Positions 31,957 through 41,294 of a stretch of 56,372 bases of DNA are shown piece by piece. The notes beneath the pieces are model-generated. The model did no database searches. It was given only the letters and a program-made list of their open reading frames with translations, and was not told the origin of the DNA. The position numbers were made by a program, and so were the translations under genes. Source of the DNA: Natronohydrobacter sp. (GTDB lineage: Bacteria > Pseudomonadota > Alphaproteobacteria > Rhodobacterales > Rhodobacteraceae); the NCBI GenBank assembly GCA_030603695.1, contig JAUVXF010000018.1, positions 1 to 56,372 on the forward strand, written 5' to 3'. Position 1 is the stretch's first letter, and every line of letters starts with the position of its first letter.

Positions 31957-32913
31957 TCACGCTCCGATTGCGCGCTCTATCCAGGCCCGCGATTCCGGCA
32001 AGGCGGCTTCCAACTGCGGAAAATCATTCACGCATAGAAACTTGGTTCCCCCGGTTGCCGCGCGGTGCAGATGGGCGCGCAACTCTTCATGCGGGAAATC
32101 TATGACTGCGCCCGTGCGCATATGCATGTAATCCTTCACGGGCGCAGGCGCATAGCACCCGGCCCGAATGGCTGCGTGGTTATGCAGGCTCATCGGCTGG
32201 AACTGCGCCAGATCGCGGAAGGGCTTGGATATGGTAGCGATGAAAGCGGCGGTATTGCGCGCGAACAGATCAGCCAGCAGCGAGCGGCGCAAAGGATGCA
32301 CAACATGCGCACTGGCCCACATATGCGCCGGACTGAACCCCACCATTTGCGCAGCCGTGATCTGCGCATAATGGTTGAACAGCGCCGGGTCTTGGCGTTT
32401 GGCCTCGTCTTGCGCCAGCGCGCTGTAATCCACCCATTTGCCACGCAGCACAGGCGCATCCTTGCGAAACACATCGTCCCGCTGCAAGGGCGCTGTCAGG
32501 AACACATCATCATTGAAATACAGAAATGCCTCTGCCAGATCAGGAATGCGCCACAGCATTGCTTCTATGGAAAGCGAGTTGAAGGTGGGCAACACAGCCT
32601 CATGGCCCGCAAAGATTACCCGGTGATCGATCACAGTCAGCCGAGCGCGCAAATCTTGCGGAATGGCCGAAAGATCGGGGGTTTGCGCATCTGTCACCAG
32701 CCAGACATGGCGCAGCCATGGCGCGTGATTGGCAATGCTTGTCAGGCAATAGGTCAATTCATCGCTGCTGCCCCAGCGGTGCGGATTGATCCCATTGGGA
32801 TGCAAACGCCCCCCGGCGGCCAAAAGCCGCGCCTGCCGTTTGGCGATATGCACCGGGTCTGAACCGTCCACCCATGTGATTACGGCATCAATCGGCGCGG
32901 CAGTGGCTGTCAT
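31957..32913 (-). CDS. Stealth family sugar-phosphate transferase
   Basis: A 318-residue protein. The N-terminal Stealth CR1 motif is IDAVITWVDGSDP (residues 8-20) and CR2 begins RWGSSDELTYCLTSIANHAP. The segment YFNDDVFLTAPL holds the conserved acidic pair, and a later H/N region (MSLHNHAAIRAG) matches the family's remaining blocks. Stealth proteins transfer hexose-1-phosphate in cell-wall phosphoglycan or capsule synthesis; the GNPT relatives act in eukaryotes. The start at 32913 has AAAGGG six bases upstream. No other glycan gene is adjacent. Confidence 0.85.
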   Translation of the reverse strand: MTATAAPIDAVITWVDGSDPVHIAKRQARLLAAGGRLHPNGINPHRWGSSDELTYCLTSIANHAPWLRHVWLVTDAQTPDLSAIPQDLRARLTVIDHRVIFAGHEAVLPTFNSLSIEAMLWRIPDLAEAFLYFNDDVFLTAPLQRDDVFRKDAPVLRGKWVDYSALAQDEAKRQDPALFNHYAQITAAQMVGFSPAHMWASAHVVHPLRRSLLADLFARNTAAFIATISKPFRDLAQFQPMSLHNHAAIRAGCYAPAPVKDYMHMRTGAVIDFPHEELRAHLHRAATGGTKFLCVNDFPQLEAALPESRAWIERAIGA

Positions 32914-33044
32914 CCATATCCCTTTCGGCAATAAGGCAAACCCGTGCTTCAGGGCAGCGGTGAAGGCCTTTGATCATGCCCTTAGCGGCGGCGGATGGAA
33001 AAGCCTAGCCAAATCAGACCAAAGGAAAACAGAGCGTGGCGAAG

Positions 33045-33824
33045 TTACAGCACTTCGGCGACATGCACATCCTGATAAACAGGGGTTGCAGGCTGGGCCG
33101 TTTCCATGAAGGGAATATCCCCCGCATCGCGCCCCGTCCCGATAATCGCCAGATCCCGGGCCGTGCTCATGCCTGTTGCATCGGCAATATGCCAGGCCTG
33201 CCCCAACCACACTTCGGCAACCGCATGAAAATCAGGCGGAGAGACATTGACACCGTATCCTGTTGTATAGCGGGCCGGAATTCCGGCAGCGCGGGCCAGC
33301 GTGCAAACCATATGCGCATAATCCCGGCACACCCCCTGCCGTGTCAGGAACGTATCAATCGCAGTTGTTCCGGCATTGGAACTGCCGGGCACATAAGACA
33401 AGGCTTGCGCCGCCCATGCCACAATCGCATCCATCTTTTCGCCGCCGCGCAGATGGCCAAATTCACTGCCCACGAAAGAGGCGAACATATCAGACTGGCA
33501 AAAGCGCGATGGGCGAAGATAGGGCAAGACATCGGGGGGCAGCGTTTCCCAGGCATCCATTTCCAGCCCGCGCCACGGCACAGCGCAGCGGTGAACATCT
33601 ACCAGCGCGCACAGCCGCAGGCGCAACCGCTCAGAGCCTGTTACAACCCAAACGCGCTGCCCCACCCCGCCTGCATCATCGATCCAAGTCAGGGCGGCAT
33701 TATCTACCGACAAATCACTCTGAATCACAGTCTGGCTTTCAGCCCATACTGGCGCAATCGCCAGCAAAACAGGGTCGGAAAACTGGATTATATACTCCAT
33801 GCTCAGATCAATTTTCAGCTTCAT
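33045..33824 (-). CDS. Transglutaminase-like cysteine protease family protein
   Basis: About 259 residues. An N-terminal beta-rich region (about 1-140) precedes the transglutaminase-like core. The catalytic triad is visible as Cys166 in RQGVCRDYAH, His200 in PPDFHAVAEVWL and Asp215 in IADATG. The cytoplasmic bacterial members act as peptidases or amidases on unknown proteins. No signal peptide is seen. It stands alone between the Stealth gene and pcaQ, with 120-130 base gaps on both sides. Confidence 0.85.
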   Translation of the reverse strand: MKLKIDLSMEYIIQFSDPVLLAIAPVWAESQTVIQSDLSVDNAALTWIDDAGGVGQRVWVVTGSERLRLRLCALVDVHRCAVPWRGLEMDAWETLPPDVLPYLRPSRFCQSDMFASFVGSEFGHLRGGEKMDAIVAWAAQALSYVPGSSNAGTTAIDTFLTRQGVCRDYAHMVCTLARAAGIPARYTTGYGVNVSPPDFHAVAEVWLGQAWHIADATGMSTARDLAIIGTGRDAGDIPFMETAQPATPVYQDVHVAEVL

Positions 33825-33944
33825 CCGCATCCTCTGCACATGGCTTCGTCCTTTATGGACATTGCCCGCGTTGGGCGGGGCCTATTACAATTGCGCCGCA
33901 GCCTAAAGGGGAAAGCGCCCATATTCTTCCGGCGCGCGCCTCTG

Positions 33945-34874
33945 TCATGATGCAGGCGCGCGCAACACGGCCCCGATATCACAGATCTCGCGCAGCACTT
34001 TGACAAAGGTATCAGCTTCTGTCGTCGTTTCAGAATTGGCGCGCTGGCAAATCCCCACGGCACCCATCGGCAATTCGTTGTCAGGTTCCAACTTGGCCAG
34101 AGTGCCCGCGGCCAGTTCATCTGCCACCACACCTTCCGAAATGAACCAGACGATATCAGATTGCATCACCAGTTTACGCCCAAAGGCCAGCGACACGGCC
34201 TCGAAGGCTGGCTCCAGATGCGCAAGGCCAACGCTGACCAGCCAGGCCCGCACACCGGGCAGGATAAGCGCTTGCGCGGGCGGCAGCATCAGCTTGTATT
34301 GGGCCAGAGCAGGCGTGAAATGCGCCATCTTGCGCAAAGGGTGTTCCGGGCGCACCACAATGGCAACACGTTCCATATAAAGCTGGCGAAAGGTCAGGCC
34401 CGTCATCTGCTCTGCGCCAGGTGCGCGCCCCACCATCAAATCCGCCGTGCCTTCGCGCAATTGCGCCAAAAGCAGCCAATTGGGGCCAGTTGTCACATGC
34501 AATGTGCAATGCGGCAGCAACTGATTAAACCGCAGCGCCGCGCGCGGCAGTAAATCCGTGGCCACTGTGGGCAGCACACCCACATTAAGTTTAGTCACCC
34601 GTTCCGGCGCATCGCGCACAGCGCTTTGCGCAGCGTCCAGCGCGCGCATGGCCGTTCCTGCATGTTGCTGAAAGACCCGCCCCGCCGGCGAAAGCACCAA
34701 GCGCCGCGCACTGCGATCAAACAGTGCAACACCCAGAATCTCTTCCAGTTCGCGCAGCGTTTTGGAAGCGGCAGGTTGCGAGACAGACAAAGCCTCTGCC
34801 GCGGCCGACAGCCCGCCAAGGCGGGCCGTTTCCAGAAAGCAGCGCAAATGGCGCAGGCGCAAACGGGGATCCAT
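33945..34874 (-). CDS. pcaQ: LysR-type regulator of the protocatechuate pathway, PcaQ-like
   Basis: A 309-residue LysR-type protein. The N-terminal winged helix (LRHLRCFLETARLGGLSAAA, then VSQPAASKTLRELEEILG) is followed by an effector-binding domain from about residue 95 (LNVGVLPTVATDLLPRA). PcaQ activates pca genes in alphaproteobacteria with 3-carboxymuconate or carboxymuconolactone as co-inducer. It is divergent from pcaD, and a PcaQ-type box starts 3 bases before its start codon, so it probably also represses itself. A second box lies at 39461. Confidence 0.88.
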   Translation of the reverse strand: MDPRLRLRHLRCFLETARLGGLSAAAEALSVSQPAASKTLRELEEILGVALFDRSARRLVLSPAGRVFQQHAGTAMRALDAAQSAVRDAPERVTKLNVGVLPTVATDLLPRAALRFNQLLPHCTLHVTTGPNWLLLAQLREGTADLMVGRAPGAEQMTGLTFRQLYMERVAIVVRPEHPLRKMAHFTPALAQYKLMLPPAQALILPGVRAWLVSVGLAHLEPAFEAVSLAFGRKLVMQSDIVWFISEGVVADELAAGTLAKLEPDNELPMGAVGICQRANSETTTEADTFVKVLREICDIGAVLRAPAS

Positions 34875-34877
34875 GAA

Positions 34878-34915
34878 ATAACCCTCAAGTTATAGGATTG
34901 GGATAAAAATATAAT
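34878..34915 (+). promoter_or_regulatory. PcaQ box plus -10 element upstream of pcaD
   Basis: ATAACC-CTCA-AGTTAT (34878-34893) matches the known PcaQ site ATAACC-N4-GGTTA with one change in the right arm. TATAAT follows at 34910-34915, 32 bases from the box start. The pcaD start is at 34950. The same 10-mer ATAACCCTCA and the same 32-base spacing recur at 39461. This is a shared PcaQ-dependent promoter design. Confidence 0.8.
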
Positions 34916-34949
34916 TTAACAATCTTTAAAACTGTGCAACCCTTTTGCC

Positions 34950-35759
34950 ATGAAAACATTTCGCCATCTTGGAAACATGCTGCATTATGCAGATCAGGGG
35001 CCAGCACAGGGCCAGCCGGTTTTCTTTGCCAATTCGCTGGGAACCGATTTGCGGGTCTGGGATCTGCTTTTGCCCCATTTGCGCCCCGGCCTTCGCCTTA
35101 TCCGCTATGACAAACGGGGGCACGGCCTCTCAGACGCCGTGCCCGCCCCTTATACCATAGACGCCCTGACAGAAGAGGCCGCAGCCCTGCTGGATCATTT
35201 GGGCTTGCGCGATGTGACAGTGGTCGGGCTGTCGATCGGGGGGATGATTGCGCAGAATCTGGCTGCAAAGCGGCCAGATCTGGTGGCCGCGCTGGTTTTG
35301 ATGGATACTGCCGCCAAAATCGGCACCGCCCAGATGTGGCAAGACCGGATAGACGCCATCCGAACACAGGGCATTGCGGCACTGTCCCAACCCATTCTGG
35401 AACGCTGGTTCGGCCCCGACTTTCACCGCACGCGGCCAGACGATCTGGCATTGTGGCGCAATATGCTGTGCCGCACCACGCTGGACGGATATCTGGGCTG
35501 TTGCGCGGCGATAGCAGACGCAGATCTGACACAGCAAACGCGCAGTCTGCGCGTGCCTGCCATTGCCATGGCGGGCAGCGCAGATGGTGCAACTCCGCCC
35601 GATCTGGTGCAGCAGACAGCCGAATATCTGGGGGCTTCGTTTTCGATCATCGCGGGCGCAGGGCATCTGCCTTGCGTCGAGGCGCCCCAAGAAGTTGCCG
35701 CGCGGATAAACCAGTTGCTTGCCAATGCGCCCCCTGCCCTGCCGCTTGCAGAGGGGTGA
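34950..35759 (+). CDS. pcaD: 3-oxoadipate enol-lactonase
   Basis: A 269-residue alpha/beta hydrolase that opens 3-oxoadipate enol-lactone to 3-oxoadipate. The nucleophile elbow GLSIGG places the catalytic Ser at 95. The oxyanion region FANSLGTDLRVWD and the late His segment AGAGHLPCVEAP complete the family pattern. It stands alone as a single plus-strand gene, whereas in many relatives it heads pcaDCHGB; here the rest of that operon begins 3.8 kb away. Gap 35760-35890 to the convergent galD-like gene holds no gene I can support. Confidence 0.92.
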   Translation: MKTFRHLGNMLHYADQGPAQGQPVFFANSLGTDLRVWDLLLPHLRPGLRLIRYDKRGHGLSDAVPAPYTIDALTEEAAALLDHLGLRDVTVVGLSIGGMIAQNLAAKRPDLVAALVLMDTAAKIGTAQMWQDRIDAIRTQGIAALSQPILERWFGPDFHRTRPDDLALWRNMLCRTTLDGYLGCCAAIADADLTQQTRSLRVPAIAMAGSADGATPPDLVQQTAEYLGASFSIIAGAGHLPCVEAPQEVAARINQLLANAPPALPLAEG

Positions 35760-35890
35760 TTGGCGGGTTTGGGCATGTTCCAGCTTTGCCAGCGCAACGC
35801 CGCATCGGGAAAAACATAGCGCAGCGCTTGGTCGCCGGGATGCGCTTCGCGCCATCATGCAGCGCAAGCCAGATAGGCAGCGTTTTTGCG

Positions 35891-36937
35891 CTATGAGAAC
35901 ACATGCCCATCCATCAATTTGCGCGCCGTGCGCAAAAACCCGGCAGAGCGGATATCAGCCCCCGTGTGATCCAACAGGATTTCGGTTTGCCCAGAGGGAT
36001 GCTCTACCCGGAAACACCCGTCAGATGGCAGGGCTGCCAGCCCATATGCCGTGCTGTCGGGGATCACACAGGCCGCCGCCACGCTGACAGCGGCCAGTAC
36101 CCCAATCCCGCTATGCACCCTGTGTGGGATAAAAGACCGCGTTGCAATGACACCGCCGCCAATGGCGGGCGCGACAAGCGCCATCTTGGGCACGCTAGAG
36201 GCAGCAACATCGCCCAAACCCATCAAAGGCCCGGCTTGCAGGCGGATCGCTTCCAGCCGGGTTTTCACCTCGGCCATGCCTTCCAGTTCGTCCGGGCGTT
36301 CATATCCAGTTAGCCCCAGATCCGCGGCGCGCAAAACCACCACAGGCATTCCATGGTCAATCAGGGTGCATTCCACCCCGTCAATCACATCCACCGCCTG
36401 CCCGCTTGGCAATACAGCGCCGCACACAGTCCCGGCGATATTTTCAAACATCAGGCGCACAGGCGCATGCGTGCCGGGCACGCCATCGATATGGGCATCG
36501 CCATCATACACCACACGCCCCCCCGGCGTCTGGATATGGGCCAGCGCAATTTCGCCTGTGTTGCGCATATGGATGCGCAGGGCGGTTTCCCCCATCTGCG
36601 CGGCGACAAGTCCGCGCTCTATCGCGGCAGGGCCAACAGCGGCAAGAATATTGCCGCAAGGCTGGGCCGCACTGATGCGCGGTTGATCGACAAACACTTG
36701 CAAGAACAGGTAATCCAGATCGGCATCGTTGCGGCTGGGCGGCGAGAGAATTGCCACCTTGGAACTGAGCGGATCGCCCCCGCCAATGCCGTCAATCTGG
36801 CGCGGATCGGGGCTGCCCATGATCCGCAGCAACAGCGCATCACGCGCCCTGGGATCACGCGGCAAATCCGTTTCCAGAAATATCGCCGCCTTGGAGCTTC
36901 CCCCCCGCATCCACAGGCAGGGTATGCCCTCAGACAT
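35891..36937 (-). CDS. galD: 4-oxalomesaconate tautomerase, PrpF family (GalD-like)
   Basis: A 348-residue PrpF/DapF-fold isomerase. The start motif [18 protein letters not shown] and [15 protein letters not shown] near 50-64 are the GalD/PrpF signatures; [20 protein letters not shown] holds the conserved catalytic Cys. GalD interconverts keto and enol forms of 4-oxalomesaconate in gallate breakdown, and PrpF proper isomerises aconitate. The neighbouring CHA aldolase and GalB homologues favour the gallate assignment. It overlaps the upstream aldolase gene by 8 bases. Confidence 0.85.
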
Positions 36938-37601
36938 ATTTCAACCCTTTGGCCGCCAGTCTTGGGCGCATGTCATATATGTCCAACCCCAACTCTCCGG
37001 CAGCAAGGCGCTGGCGCCGCGCCTCTTCTGAGGCCATGCGCGCTTCGGCCTTTTGCGCCACCTCTGCCGCGCGCTGCGTGGCCACAACCACCACCCCATC
37101 GCCATCTGCAACAATAACATCGCCCGCATTCACCAACTGGCCCGCGCAGACAATCGGCACATTTACCGAACCCAGCGTTTCTTTCACGGTGCCTTGCGCC
37201 GAAATCGCGGTCGACCAGACAGGAAAGCCCATCTCTTCCAGTTCCAGAATATCGCGCACACCTCCATCAATCACCAGCCCCGCGCAGCCCCGCGCCATGG
37301 CCGATGTGGCCAGCAAATCGCCAAAATAGCCCATGTCACAGGGGCTGGTCGGGGCAAGAACCATAAAATCACCGGGGCGCAGCTGCTCTATCGCCACATG
37401 CAGCATCCAGTTATCCCCCGGCGGGGCAGAGATTGTAACGGCACTGCCCGCAAGGCGCGGGCCGCGCCAGACCGGGCGCATTTGCGCATGCATACAGCCA
37501 GTGCGCCCCTGTGCTTCATGCACCGTGGCCACACCGGCCGCGGCCAAACGCGCAATCACCTCTGCGGGGGCGCGGGGGATATTCTGAACAACAACACCCA
37601 T
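36930..37601 (-). CDS. galC: 4-carboxy-4-hydroxy-2-oxoadipate (CHA) aldolase / oxaloacetate decarboxylase, RraA fold
   Basis: 223 residues from [12 protein letters not shown]. The RraA-like class II aldolase core shows GTGCM-type start [12 protein letters not shown], the pocket sequence [25 protein letters not shown], and the metal/substrate segment [22 protein letters not shown] with the catalytic Arg and Asp pair. LigK/GalC enzymes cleave CHA to pyruvate and oxaloacetate and also decarboxylate oxaloacetate. It lies between galD-like and dioxygenase genes, 5 bases from the latter, in a four-gene minus-strand operon. Confidence 0.88.
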
Positions 37602-37606
37602 CCTTG

Positions 37607-38563
37607 TTATCCTTTGGCTACAGGCGGTGTGCCATGGGTATGAAATGTCTCTATTGTTTTCAGGCCCCAGGCCTGGCCCTTCTTGCGGTCTGTCTCTGTC
37701 CAGCGCACAGGCTGCCAATCCGGCGCAAGGATCAGGCGCGCACCGGCATTGGCCAGTTCTACCCGGTTGCCTGCCGGTTCCCAGACATACAGAAAAAACG
37801 TGCCCTGAATGGCGTGTTTATGCGGGCCGGTTTCGATATGCACCCCGTTTTGCAAAAAGATATCGGCGGCGCGCAGGATATCTTCGCGCTGGTCTGTGGC
37901 ATAGGTGACATGATGCAAGCGCCCATGGCCGCCCCCGTGATCTTCGGTGCAGGCCAGATCGTAGGTTTTGTTGTTGATGGTAAACCAGCACCCGCCAATG
38001 CGGCCATTATCCAACTGGATGTATTCTGTCACCCGGCTGCCAAGGCAGGTTTCCATAAAACGGCGGAATTCGGACACATCAGCCGCCAGAAGATTGAGGT
38101 GATCAATCCTGCGCGGCGCGGCACCCGTAAAGGCGCTGGCAGTGTTTTTCAGCGCCGGGCGATCCGCGCCAACGGCTTCGGCGCGGCGCGTGTCATAATA
38201 TATCTCAAACATATGGCCGAAAGGATCTTCAAACCGGAAGGCGCGGCCATGCCCCAAATCCCCATCCTGCCAGCCATGCACCTTGTAGCCTGATCCCTCT
38301 ATCACCGCCACACGCCGGGCCAATGCATCTTCGCTGGCAGCACGGTAGCCGATATGGCCCACGCCCGTGGTGTGGTGGCGCGTCAGTTTGAGCGAGTGAA
38401 ACTCGTAATCGTCCCAAGCCCGCAGATAGGCGCTTGTTTCATCCTGCCCCGACAGTTTCAGGCCATAAATGCGGGTGAAAAAATCAAGGCTTTCGTCAAA
38501 CTTGTCGGTAAACATCTCGACATGGCCCAGATGGGCGATATCAAAACTGGGGGGGATGGTCAT
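37607..38563 (-). CDS. Extradiol ring-cleavage dioxygenase, VOC superfamily (type I)
   Basis: 318 residues from [19 protein letters not shown], with GAGGAGG 8 bases before the ATG. Two VOC modules at about 10-125 and 145-290. The iron ligands appear as His in RIDHLNLLA, His in RLHHVTYAT and Glu in [10 protein letters not shown], the pattern of catechol 2,3-dioxygenase. Type I enzymes meta-cleave catechols with Fe(II) and O2. Its neighbours are GalD-, GalC- and GalB-like, so it probably cleaves gallate or a close trihydroxylated acid, although known gallate dioxygenases belong to the unrelated LigAB class. No ferredoxin or LigAB gene is present. Confidence 0.87.
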
Positions 38564-38576
38564 GGAACACGCCTCC

Positions 38577-39308
38577 TCAAAGCTGATCGACTGTGCGCGG
38601 GAAAATGGATTGGAAAGCTTCGGCATATGTGCAATCCCGCCCGCCGGATTGCCCGCCCGAATTACGCTTGAAATGGTTGGCACGCTGCTGGGCGACGCGG
38701 GTGTAATAGTCCCACAAATGCACCTGCCCGCCCATCTGTTCCATCGCGGCGCGCTTTTTCTCCCAAACAGGCGTGATGTCCAGAAATGTATCGGGCTTCC
38801 AGCCCATCTGCTCTGTTTGATGGGGTTCAAACAGGTAAAGTTGCGGCGCGCCAAGCACTTTTTCACCGGGGTTATGGCCCCAGGCCTGCGCGATCATCCG
38901 CGCTTCCAGCGCGATCTGGGTGGTGTACATATGATCGGTGTTATAGGGGTCATACTGGCTATGGCTCAGCATGAATGACGGCTGCACCGCGCGGATCAGA
39001 TCCACCAGCCGCATTTTGTCGGCCTGCTCCAGATGCAAGGGGTAATCCCCCAGATCAAAGCATTCCAGACGGTGAACACCCAGCGCCTGTGCCGCACCCT
39101 CGGCCTCGGCGCGGCGGATGGCTTTCACCTGCTCCAGCGTCTTGCCTTCTTTCCACAGTTTGGCACTTTCGCCCCGCTCGCCAAAAGACAGGCAGGCAAC
39201 AGTAATCTGATAGCCCATCTGCGCATGCAGCGCGATTGCCCCGCCACAGCGCCAGACGAAATCTGCGGCATGGGCGGAAATCACAAGGGCGGTTTTGGGG
39301 CTGGACAT
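38577..39308 (-). CDS. galB: 4-oxalomesaconate hydratase, PIG-L/LmbE fold (GalB-like)
   Basis: 243 residues from MSSPKTALVISAHAADF, with AGGAG before the ATG. LmbE-fold zinc elements are the opening SAHAADFVWRCGG and CLSFGERGESAKLW, then HSQYDPYNTDH and LFEPHQTEQMGWKPDTFLD. These follow the Pseudomonas GalB sequence as I remember it more closely than sugar deacetylases. GalB hydrates 4-oxalomesaconate to CHA. It is the first gene of the minus-strand cluster and is divergent from pcaC across the second PcaQ box. Confidence 0.83.
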   Translation of the reverse strand: MSSPKTALVISAHAADFVWRCGGAIALHAQMGYQITVACLSFGERGESAKLWKEGKTLEQVKAIRRAEAEGAAQALGVHRLECFDLGDYPLHLEQADKMRLVDLIRAVQPSFMLSHSQYDPYNTDHMYTTQIALEARMIAQAWGHNPGEKVLGAPQLYLFEPHQTEQMGWKPDTFLDITPVWEKKRAAMEQMGGQVHLWDYYTRVAQQRANHFKRNSGGQSGGRDCTYAEAFQSIFPRTVDQL

Positions 39309-39460
39309 AAGAACTCCTGTCTGCGGCTGTCTGGCGTTTGTGCCAAACCGGGCCTGCACACTCAAATCATAAAGCGGCGCAAGGTCATAAGTGAATGGAA
39401 CAGAAGCTGCCTGCACTGGGGCGTTGCTTCGGCGCCAGGTCTGCATGGCTTTGAGATTAC

Positions 39461-39498
39461 ATAACCCTCAGGATATGCAAATCGCACAAGAATATAAT
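39461..39498 (+). promoter_or_regulatory. Second PcaQ box plus -10 element upstream of pcaC
   Basis: ATAACC-CTCA-GGATAT (39461-39476) with TATAAT at 39493-39498, again 32 bases from box start to -10. It differs from the ideal PcaQ dyad by one base in the right arm, at another position than the first copy. pcaC starts at 39584. The box is also 153 bases upstream of galB on the other strand, where TTCACT and TATGAT with 18-base spacing (39390-39395 and 39366-39371 on the minus strand) could form a promoter. Confidence 0.8.
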
Positions 39499-39583
39499 TT
39501 ATCCTGATTGCATTTCGTGTCATCACAGCCATACTCAACTGTCATGCAGCAACACCATGGGGCGAGAGAATGAGCGAGGGGGC

Positions 39584-39976
39584 ATGAGCGAGCGCTATTC
39601 GGAGGGGATGCGCGTGCGGCGCGCGGTGCTGGGCGATGCCCATGTTGAACGCGCCGAAGCCCTGCGCAACGGGCTGGACACGCCCTTTCAAACCCTGATC
39701 ACAGAGGCCGCATGGGGCACTGTCTGGGCCTCTGACGCACTAACCCTGCGCGAGCGTTCAATGCTGACGCTGGCCATTCTGGCGGCAACCGGCAATTTTG
39801 AAGAAATCCCGATGCATATCCGCGCGACCCAGCGCACCGGGGCAAGCCCGCGCGATGTGATGGAAGCCTTTCAGCATGTGGCAATCTATGCAGGCGTCCC
39901 AAAAGCCAATCACGCCATCAAACTCGCCAAGGCGACATTTGCCGAAATGGAGGCGGCAAAAGATGATGACCAATAG
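39584..39976 (+). CDS. pcaC: 4-carboxymuconolactone decarboxylase
   Basis: A 130-residue AhpD-like CMD protein of the usual PcaC length. MSERYSEGMRVRRAVLGDAHVERA, the mid-block ITEAAWGTVWAS, and IPMHIRATQRTGASPRDVMEAFQHVAIYAG are the family pattern. It decarboxylates gamma-carboxymuconolactone to 3-oxoadipate enol-lactone. The start at 39584 follows GAGGGGGC; an upstream ATG at 39557 lacks an RBS. It begins the second pca transcript and overlaps pcaH by 14 bases. Confidence 0.93.
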   Translation: MSERYSEGMRVRRAVLGDAHVERAEALRNGLDTPFQTLITEAAWGTVWASDALTLRERSMLTLAILAATGNFEEIPMHIRATQRTGASPRDVMEAFQHVAIYAGVPKANHAIKLAKATFAEMEAAKDDDQ

Positions 39977-40691
39977 CCCCCTTATCCCGCGCAACCGCGC
40001 ATTGCACCCTGTGCCGTATGACCCTGACTATAAAACCACAATGGCGCGCGCGCCTCTTCTGCCGCTTTTGTCGATGGATTCCAGCGCGTCAGAGGAAACT
40101 GGCCCAACCTTCGGCCATAACCAGTTTGGGGCGCTGGATAACAATCTTATCCTGAACTGGACACGCGGCGCGGCCCCTGCCGTGGGCGAGCGCATCTTGA
40201 TGCATGGCCGCGTGGTGGATGAATTCGGGCGCGGCGTGCCGCATACGCTGGTGGAAATCTGGCAGGCCAATGCAGGCGGGCGCTACCGCCACAAGAAAGA
40301 CGGCTATCTTGCCCCGCTTGACCCCAATTTCGGCGGTGCCGGGCGCACTCTTACAGATGCCGAGGGGCGTTATCAGTTTCTTACCATCCGCCCCGGCGCT
40401 TACCCTTGGCCCAATCGGGGCAATGACTGGCGGCCCATGCATATCCACATATCCGTCTTTGGCCACAGCTTTGGCCAGCGCCTGATTACCCAGATGTATT
40501 TTGAAGGCGACCCTCTGATCCCGCTTTGCCCGATTGCCGCAACTGTGAAAAACCGCGCCAGCCTTGAGCAACTGGTCGCGCCGCTGGACATGGCTAATTC
40601 CAAACCGCTGGATTACATCGCCTACAAGTTTGATATCGTGCTGCGCGGCCGCCGCCAAAGCATGTTTGAAAACAAGCCAGAGGGAATGTGA
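39963..40691 (+). CDS. pcaH: Protocatechuate 3,4-dioxygenase beta subunit
   Basis: A 242-residue intradiol dioxygenase subunit that carries the Fe(III) site. Ligands visible are Tyr108 in GRYRH, Tyr147 in GAYPW, and His160 and His162 in MHIHISVFG. With PcaG it ortho-cleaves protocatechuate to 3-carboxy-cis,cis-muconate. Two tandem ATGs (39963 and 39966) are possible starts inside the pcaC end. Three bases separate it from pcaG. Confidence 0.95.
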   Translation: MMTNSPLIPRNRALHPVPYDPDYKTTMARAPLLPLLSMDSSASEETGPTFGHNQFGALDNNLILNWTRGAAPAVGERILMHGRVVDEFGRGVPHTLVEIWQANAGGRYRHKKDGYLAPLDPNFGGAGRTLTDAEGRYQFLTIRPGAYPWPNRGNDWRPMHIHISVFGHSFGQRLITQMYFEGDPLIPLCPIAATVKNRASLEQLVAPLDMANSKPLDYIAYKFDIVLRGRRQSMFENKPEGM

Positions 40692-40694
40692 GCC

Positions 40695-41294
40695 ATGGTT
40701 CAGAAACTGGAAATGCTGTCCGAGACCGCCTCGCAAACCGCAGGCCCCTATGTGCATATCGGGCTGATGCCGTCTTACACTGGCAATGGCCAGATATTTG
40801 ATCTGGAACTGGGGCAAAGCCCGGTTGCAGAGGGCGCAAAGGGCGAGATCATCGAGATCACAGGCTCTGTCTATGATGGCACAGGCTGGGCCATGCGCGA
40901 TGCGCTGATTGAAAGCTGGCAACCCGATGCACAGGGCCTTTTTGCAGGCGAAGCAGGCGCAGACCCCAAGGTATCGGGGTTTTGCCGCTTTGCCGCCAAT
41001 GCCGACAGCGGCGAATTTACCTTGCGCACTGTCAAACCGGGCCGCGTGGCCTTGCGCGACGGGCGGATGCAAGCGCCCCATATCTCGCTTTGGATTGTGG
41101 CGCGCGGTATCAATATCGGCCTGCAAACCCGGATATATTTCGAGGATGAGGACAACAGCGCAGACCCGCTTCTTGCCAGAATAGAACAGCGCCCACGAGT
41201 GGACACCTTGATCGCCAAGAAAACAGGGCCGGGCCGCTACCGCTTTGATATTCGCTTGCAGGGGCCGGGCGAAACGGTTTTTCTGGATATCTGA
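40695..41294 (+). CDS. pcaG: Protocatechuate 3,4-dioxygenase alpha subunit
   Basis: A 199-residue subunit, homologous to the beta chain but lacking the iron ligands. ETASQTAGPYVHIGLMP near 10-26, then EITGSVYDGTGWAMRDALIE and HISLWIVARGINIGLQTRIYF follow PcaG. It shapes the substrate pocket of the (alpha-beta)12-type enzyme. The gene is followed by a 38-base gap to the BKACE gene on the same strand. Confidence 0.95.
   Translation: MVQKLEMLSETASQTAGPYVHIGLMPSYTGNGQIFDLELGQSPVAEGAKGEIIEITGSVYDGTGWAMRDALIESWQPDAQGLFAGEAGADPKVSGFCRFAANADSGEFTLRTVKPGRVALRDGRMQAPHISLWIVARGINIGLQTRIYFEDEDNSADPLLARIEQRPRVDTLIAKKTGPGRYRFDIRLQGPGETVFLDI

Follow-up and report, generated by a model that had tools for sequence, protein, structure and literature searches.

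A VOC-type extradiol dioxygenase as candidate gallate-opening enzyme in a gal operon of Natronohydrobacter sp.

Known gallate dioxygenases and the gal operon of Natronohydrobacter sp.

Gallate is a unit of the hydrolysable tannins, which are common in plants, and it also lies on the route from syringyl lignin. The gallate dioxygenases GalA of Pseudomonas putida KT2440 and DesB of Sphingobium SYK-6 carry out the same reaction as is proposed below for a protein of the VOC superfamily, and enzymes of the GalD, GalB and GalC kind act downstream of them (PMC12314914, available sections). For the gallate-opening step the same 2025 survey lists desB, ligAB and galA in these sections, while the available part of the AromaDeg description places the gallate dioxygenases in the LigB superfamily and does not have them among the listed VOC substrates (PMC4250580). 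GalA and DesB share the LigAB fold and are represented by the model NF009904. The dioxygenases of the LigAB and MgaAB type (for protocatechuate and 3-O-methylgallate) have this fold as well and deliver their products to the same final GalDBC steps; one such pair is encoded in the genome studied here. In the mga operon of Pseudomonas NGC7, which encodes MgaAB, the hydrolase MgaC and a GntR-type repressor, 3-O-methylgallate is opened and the product passed on to GalDBC (PMC12314914, available sections). A VOC-type gallate dioxygenase was not found in the open literature searched, subscription papers and preprints being outside that search.

The locus described here lies on contig JAUVXF010000018.1 of Natronohydrobacter sp., in a stretch of 56,372 nucleotides that was analyzed as a whole and is referred to as the window. 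The open reading frame at 37607–38563 (minus strand) encodes a VOC-fold (type I) extradiol dioxygenase of 318 aa, the proposed gallate dioxygenase, with H155, H218, E269 and Tyr201 in its active site. It is the second gene of a minus-strand operon with the order galB-VOC-galC-galD, in which the spacing is tight (13 bp between galB and the VOC gene, 5 bp between the VOC stop and galC, and an 8 bp overlap of galC and galD). The CHA aldolase gene galC/ligK (36930–37601, minus strand) scores 352.8 bits with TIGR02798 against a cut-off of 304.5, and galD (35891–36937, minus strand), encoding a 4-oxalomesaconate (OMA) tautomerase of 348 aa, scores 482.5 with NF033377 against a cut-off of 440. The candidate 4-oxalomesaconate/CHM hydratase at 38577–39308 (minus strand, 243 aa) belongs to the PIG-L family (PF02585); its open frame reaches 39446, and the start at 39308 was picked from relatives. 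No NCBIfam name was obtained for this protein at E 1e-20, and it is called GalB because of its PIG-L membership and its position in the operon. Genes for a hydratase, an aldolase and a tautomerase thus share one unit with the ring opener, as expected of a gal pathway cluster, and the GalD-, GalC- and GalB-like neighbors named in the initial annotation are borne out, the first two by curated models and the last at the level of the Pfam family.

The gal block is embedded in pca genes. On one side lie pcaQ for the LysR-type pca regulator (33945–34874, minus strand; TIGR02424, 304.4 against a cut-off of 303.8) and pcaD for the 3-oxoadipate enol-lactonase (34950–35759, plus strand; TIGR02427, 308.4 against 255.85). 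The other side has pcaC for the 4-carboxymuconolactone decarboxylase (39557–39976, plus strand; TIGR02425, 183 against 155.7), followed by pcaH and pcaG for the intradiol protocatechuate 3,4-dioxygenase (39960–41294, plus strand; TIGR02422, 332.8 against 296.4, and TIGR02423, 216.2 against 126.25) and further pca/pob genes. The VOC protein had been described as the only ring-cleaving enzyme here, which is incorrect, since both subunits of PcaH/PcaG are above their curated cut-offs. A frame at 31957–32931 (minus strand), unrelated to the aromatic genes, reads as Stealth-like from its VITWVDGSD motif, which we take to be that of the Stealth-type capsule phosphotransferases.

The divergent galB-pcaC intergenic region contains an imperfect dyad, ATAACCCTCAGGATAT (39461–39476), which is a possible LysR-type (PcaQ-like) site, and a dyad with the same core, ATAACCCTCAAGTTAT, is found between pcaQ and pcaD (34878–34893); both are consensus matches only, and the core common to them is ATAACCCTCA. 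The PcaQ-like pattern with up to three mismatches occurs 20 times in the window against 14.9 expected, with 15 of 100 shuffles reaching 20, i.e., without clear excess. The shared-core pattern was found twice against 0.32 expected (7 of 100 shuffles reach 2), a descriptive figure, since the pattern was derived from both sites. A dyad with at most three mismatches from ATAACC-N4-GGTTAT is present in the galB-pcaC gap of four of the five distinct relatives with a short gap, and 12 sites of this kind occur in the 68,429 bases that make up the five relatives' stretches (one strand, gaps included). The four distinct relatives that have both pcaQ and pcaD show no related dyad between these genes. A promoter scan of 33800–39700 was set aside; it gave four sigma-70-like sites where 2.5 are expected. 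From these sequence matches, joint control of the gal and pca genes by PcaQ appears possible.

Fold, metal ligands and Tyr201

The product of the VOC gene is a member of the VOC superfamily of type I extradiol dioxygenases, as first annotated, and its His/His/Glu ligands are in place. Pfam Glyoxalase (PF00903) is above its cut-off in two stretches of the protein, corresponding to two tandem glyoxalase-fold domains. The protein scores 292.3 bits with the catechol 2,3-dioxygenase model TIGR03211, which is under the cut-off of 320.2, and 205.2 bits with the HpaD model. Searches against Pfam and NCBIfam at E 0.001 gave no match to PF02900, PF07746 or NF009904 (cut-off 412), the models of the LigAB fold and of GalA/DesB, to which the VOC fold is unrelated. 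The residues H155, H218 and E269, the 2-His-1-carboxylate set of the C-terminal domain, are invariant in alignments of 30 and 16 rows and in the printed rows of a comparison of 133 loci (121 distinct homologs). Being a plain catechol 2,3-dioxygenase was rejected on the score under the TIGR03211 cut-off together with the gal genes as neighbors. Among annotated plasmid homologs with at least 80% identity, the labels are catechol 2,3-dioxygenase, 2,3-dihydroxybiphenyl 1,2-dioxygenase or VOC family protein.

The best sequence matches in the PDB are 9wgj, 3lm4 and 7q2a, followed by the homoprotocatechuate 2,3-dioxygenase HPCD. An AlphaFold2 model was built from 26 sequences, with a mean pLDDT of 78.8 and values below 50 for residues 297–318, and all 50 of the Foldseek matches listed for it are VOC extradiol dioxygenases. 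The best structural matches, the VOC catechol-type dioxygenases AphC (7q2a) and that of Rhodococcus RHA1 (3lm4), have the same fold and ligands (TM 0.82) and are 32–33% identical to the VOC protein, but carry His at the position of Tyr201. The plasmid proteins L118 and L119, which are more similar, also have His and adjoin genes for 4-hydroxy-2-oxovalerate aldolase, i.e., the catechol meta route. HPCD (1q0c and variants) has the VOC fold too, and equivalents of its residues H155, H214, E267, Y257, H248 and W192 are present in the VOC protein, the pairing being based on alignment columns counted by hand and on HPCD residue numbers that are presumed, apart from H200 and Y257, which stand in PDB titles. 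By the same hand count, Arg243 and Arg293 of HPCD align with Thr245 and Gly296.

Tyr201 takes the position of HPCD His200, which we take to be a second-sphere acid-base and O2-activating residue. Such a second-sphere His is common in the VOC dioxygenase fold family, yet it is no requirement for membership. Across the 133 compared loci, Tyr is found at position 201 in all 118 with at least 58% identity. The 15 more distant loci, which were hand-picked, the pWW0- and NAH7-encoded catechol 2,3-dioxygenases being part of the set, have His in 14 cases (among them L139, at 46% identity) and Ile in one. In a tree of 51 rows the Tyr set forms one side of a branch with support of 100/99, some of the outgroup branches being long. 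The swap from the second-sphere His to Tyr across the examined clade is a new observation here. His200Phe HPCD is reportedly able to cleave intradiol, and variants of His200 are among the PDB structures listed by Foldseek.

The closest solved sequence, 9wgj (347.5 bits; outside the tree and neighborhood counts), has Tyr at position 201 like the VOC protein. It can be aligned with VOC-type proteins along almost the entire sequence despite its title, ‘Catechol 1,2-dioxygenase’, and is either misnamed or an intradiol-acting VOC enzyme.

For gallate, the exchange of His for Tyr may be tolerated or selected, since intradiol and extradiol opening of its neighboring diols give the same skeleton. When three hydroxyls sit side by side on the ring (1,2,3-trihydroxy), the bond that is extradiol to one diol is intradiol to the other, and breaking it yields the same OMA skeleton in either mode, so the enzyme might not need the His that directs the chemistry toward extradiol cleavage. 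An intradiol-like enzyme in the VOC fold is therefore conceivable for the Tyr clade. The clade is not uniform in its gene setting. Three 61% homologs (L136, L137 and L145) have the same Tyr and no gal genes nearby; for L137 and L145, from a large-genome alphaproteobacterial genus, the neighbors were read by eye as molybdenum-hydroxylase-like and 6-hydroxynicotinate-reductase-like, and the substrate is perhaps another one. A 59% sister in Thermus oshimai is found near genes for a 4-hydroxybenzoate 3-monooxygenase, an aldehyde dehydrogenase, a DUF6282 protein, a PIG-L protein, a CHA aldolase and an NAD(P)-dependent oxidoreductase, a cluster that looks like one for protocatechuate. In view of L137, L145 and this sister, our claim is limited to the gal-linked part of the clade. 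A comparison of the pocket for gallate against protocatechuate gave 16 inspected residues that are identical in the VOC protein and the Thermus oshimai sister, and the pocket thus does not decide the substrate.

Co-occurrence with OMA tautomerase and with LigAB-type enzymes

In 62 of the 80 nearest relative loci (the best 80 of 561 matches), the four genes share a strand and follow one another exactly as galB-VOC-galC-galD. Taken singly, galB and galC are each present in 70 and galD in 66, and all three are absent from the stretch in nine. In two of these nine (L047 and L084) the contig ends just 3′ of the VOC gene, which puts any galC and galD out of view; galB is missing upstream as well.

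To have a fairer sample than these best matches, we took 398 genomes from across the phylum and searched them for the VOC protein, the OMA tautomerase (NF033377) and the gallate dioxygenase (NF009904). A VOC homolog of at least 67% identity is present in nine genomes, all nine of which have NF033377 over the cut-off, compared with 49 of the 389 others (Fisher p = 1.7e-8, or 1.1e-7 with the own genome left out). On the former value, a chance neighborhood was rejected. Ten genomes with 60–63% homologs have the tautomerase over the cut-off in one case (p = 0.80) and below it in two more, and the 23 genomes with only a distant homolog (28–47%, E 1e-25) have it in four (p = 0.44), i.e., without a link in either group. 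A match to NF009904 at E 1e-40 is missing in six of the nine genomes with a homolog of at least 67%. Since 21 of the 58 genomes with an OMA tautomerase in this sample have neither ring opener, the NF033377 model is not specific to gallate users. An 81% homolog on a plasmid of Pantoea sp. At-9b (L092, 9980–10960) has no gal genes around it; it is flanked by ABC transporter operons and by a flavin monooxygenase gene, and perhaps reflects a transfer into Enterobacterales.

Carriers of a VOC homolog of at least 70% identity number 18 among 100 relatives, the own genome included. Neither LigA (PF07746) nor LigB (PF02900) was found in 12 of them, nine of which are at least 90% complete, while the other six have both. 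The OMA tautomerase is present in 17 of the 18 carriers and in 11 of the 12 that lack LigAB, and in nine of these 12 the VOC gene stands beside galB, galC and galD. The genome G056 (L104) has the VOC gene (84%) and no OMA tautomerase, LigA or LigB, so its product must take another route there, or the VOC gene is not in use. In 13 further records behind hand-picked loci (11 genomes and two plasmids), PF02900 is missing in eight, namely both plasmids and six genomes including the two with a tannase gene (L062 and L073), and five genomes give a LigB match, which is strong in one of them (E 5e-53).

In the own genome, LigA and LigB are each encoded once (PF07746 and PF02900; G000:C19:76104-77199). 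They are part of a consecutive set of LigM, alpha/beta hydrolase, LigA and LigB on contig C19 (G000:C19:67000-86000; about 5977–10221 in L096), in which the LigM-type O-demethylase scores 623.3 with NF047885 against 580 and a frame upstream was named GntR-like by reading. With LigA, LigB, an alpha/beta hydrolase and the GntR-like frame, the set resembles the mga operon of Pseudomonas NGC7, LigM being a further member on C19. Because it adjoins the O-demethylase and the hydrolase genes, the LigA and LigB pair looks like a 3-O-methylgallate branch rather than a GalA. By analogy, this branch and the VOC enzyme would share the GalDBC enzymes of the window. The initial annotation had held that a LigAB-type gallate dioxygenase elsewhere in the genome that accounts for growth on gallate would speak against the VOC enzyme; in part this applies, since a LigAB-type pair does exist, but it appears to have this 3-O-methylgallate character, with a LigB that reaches 290–291 bits on the gallate dioxygenase model, for which the cut-off is 412.

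Two loci combine the VOC homolog with LigAB-fold genes. In L098 (G041:C12, 8373–13787) it shares its strand with TRAP transporter genes and with a genuine gallate dioxygenase fusion of the GalA type (720 bits with NF009904), so the two enzymes of this genome may differ in substrate. In L087 (1465–8948) it adjoins, on the opposite strand, a set of LigB, alpha/beta hydrolase, galC, galB and galD genes.

Substrate of the VOC enzyme and alternative explanations

Comparative evidence indicates that the VOC protein is probably a gallate 4,5-dioxygenase and a non-orthologous replacement of GalA/DesB. The enzyme, dependent on Fe(II) or Mn(II), would open gallate between C4 and C5 to give OMA, which GalD would tautomerize. 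The PIG-L hydratase GalB would then hydrate the tautomerized OMA, and GalC would split the resulting 4-carboxy-4-hydroxy-2-oxoadipate into pyruvate and oxaloacetate. The VOC enzyme would thus occupy the place that the LigAB-fold enzymes GalA and DesB have in Pseudomonas putida and Sphingobium. We infer substrate, metal and product alike; gallate is favored because its opening gives the OMA skeleton directly. Protocatechuate and 3-O-methylgallate fit less well, since the former calls for a pyrone hydrolase in addition to an aldehyde dehydrogenase and the latter for an esterase, and the four conserved operon genes encode none of these (our derivation, drawing on PMC8091115 and PMC12314914).

Neighbors in the relatives give further clues to the substrate. 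Tannases release gallate, and a tannase gene is found 3′ of galC in L062 and of galD in L073 (two of the 80 loci). On a conjugative plasmid of Agrobacterium tumefaciens from walnut (pAt; L091, 9252–14623), galB-VOC-galC-galD is followed by a tannase gene as well. This tannase, the only one of the three that was scanned with Pfam, matches PF07519 with 437.9 bits, and identity to it is 57% for the L062 protein and 60% for that of L073. Among the listed carriers of the VOC gene are 19 walnut records of A. tumefaciens, of which L091 was the one inspected for tannase. The tannase linkage points to gallate as the substrate. The LigM of contig C19 could feed gallate in the own genome. TRAP transporter genes are near the VOC gene in 33 of the 80 loci.

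Three other explanations were weighed against gallate opening by the VOC enzyme. The enzyme could be a VOC-type protocatechuate 4,5-dioxygenase whose product reaches OMA by the long route, through a semialdehyde dehydrogenase and a pyrone hydrolase encoded elsewhere. This would suit the position of the cluster inside a pca/pob region and the setting of the Thermus oshimai sister with its 16 identical residues, and it is somewhat favored by a DUF1932 dehydrogenase-like gene near the VOC gene in 38 of the 80 loci (in 36 of them on the other strand), which could be the dehydrogenase serving the semialdehyde. We nevertheless consider it unlikely: no DUF1932 match was found in the window, where PcaGH already serves protocatechuate, a LigI-type hydrolase is not among the listed frequent neighbors, the genome's single PF04909 amidohydrolase (the expected place of LigI) has no NCBIfam name at E 1e-10, and the tannase linkage speaks for gallate. 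Least probable of the three is that the substrate of the VOC enzyme is 3-O-methylgallate, formed first when syringate is demethylated, instead of gallate. A LigM-like O-demethylase gene within the stretch (up to 8 kb on each side) in eight of the 80 loci would agree with it, two of these at only 41–45% identity, whereas the ring-opening product of 3-O-methylgallate, CHMOD, is a methyl ester and has to be processed by an esterase (PMC12314914, available sections), which the four-gene operon does not contain. A separate mga-like set is moreover present on C19, and both systems stand side by side in L087.

It is also conceivable, and to us improbable, that gallate is opened by the LigA and LigB pair of C19 while the VOC enzyme acts on another catechol whose product likewise passes through GalBCD. 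The presence of the pair in the own genome and the coexistence of GalA and VOC in G041 are in line with this, as is the partial in vitro cleavage of supplied gallate by LigAB enzymes from Novosphingobium (PMC8091115, available sections). Against it stand the 12 of 18 carriers that have no LigAB match, with the VOC gene mostly beside galB, galC and galD, and the low score of the own LigB on the gallate dioxygenase model. Of the proposal in the initial annotation, a non-orthologous gallate dioxygenase, the reading as such is strengthened by the conserved operon, the co-occurrence in nine of nine genomes, the carriers devoid of LigAB and the adjoining tannase genes, and it is weakened by LigA and LigB in the own genome. 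Against gallate also count the nine loci with the VOC gene but none of galB, galC and galD, the carrier G056, the coexistence with GalA in G041, the frequent DUF1932 neighbor, the Thermus oshimai sister and the rarity of the tautomerase in the ten genomes with 60–63% homologs.

More tentatively, the VOC enzymes of this kind may form a second, independently evolved class of gallate dioxygenases, with the VOC fold and with the usual catalytic His replaced by Tyr clade-wide, a proposal that we regard as possible rather than probable. If gallate is indeed the substrate, this would be a non-orthologous replacement in which a naturally occurring exchange of His for Tyr affects a catalytic position that has received much study. 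Surveys based only on GalA, DesB and LigAB would score carriers of the VOC gene as unable to open gallate, and the VOC enzyme would fill the pathway hole in the carriers without LigAB. It would also explain how some marine and soil bacteria might use gallate without the textbook enzyme, and in many Rhodobacterales and Rhizobiales gallate would then be opened mainly by the VOC enzyme with Tyr.
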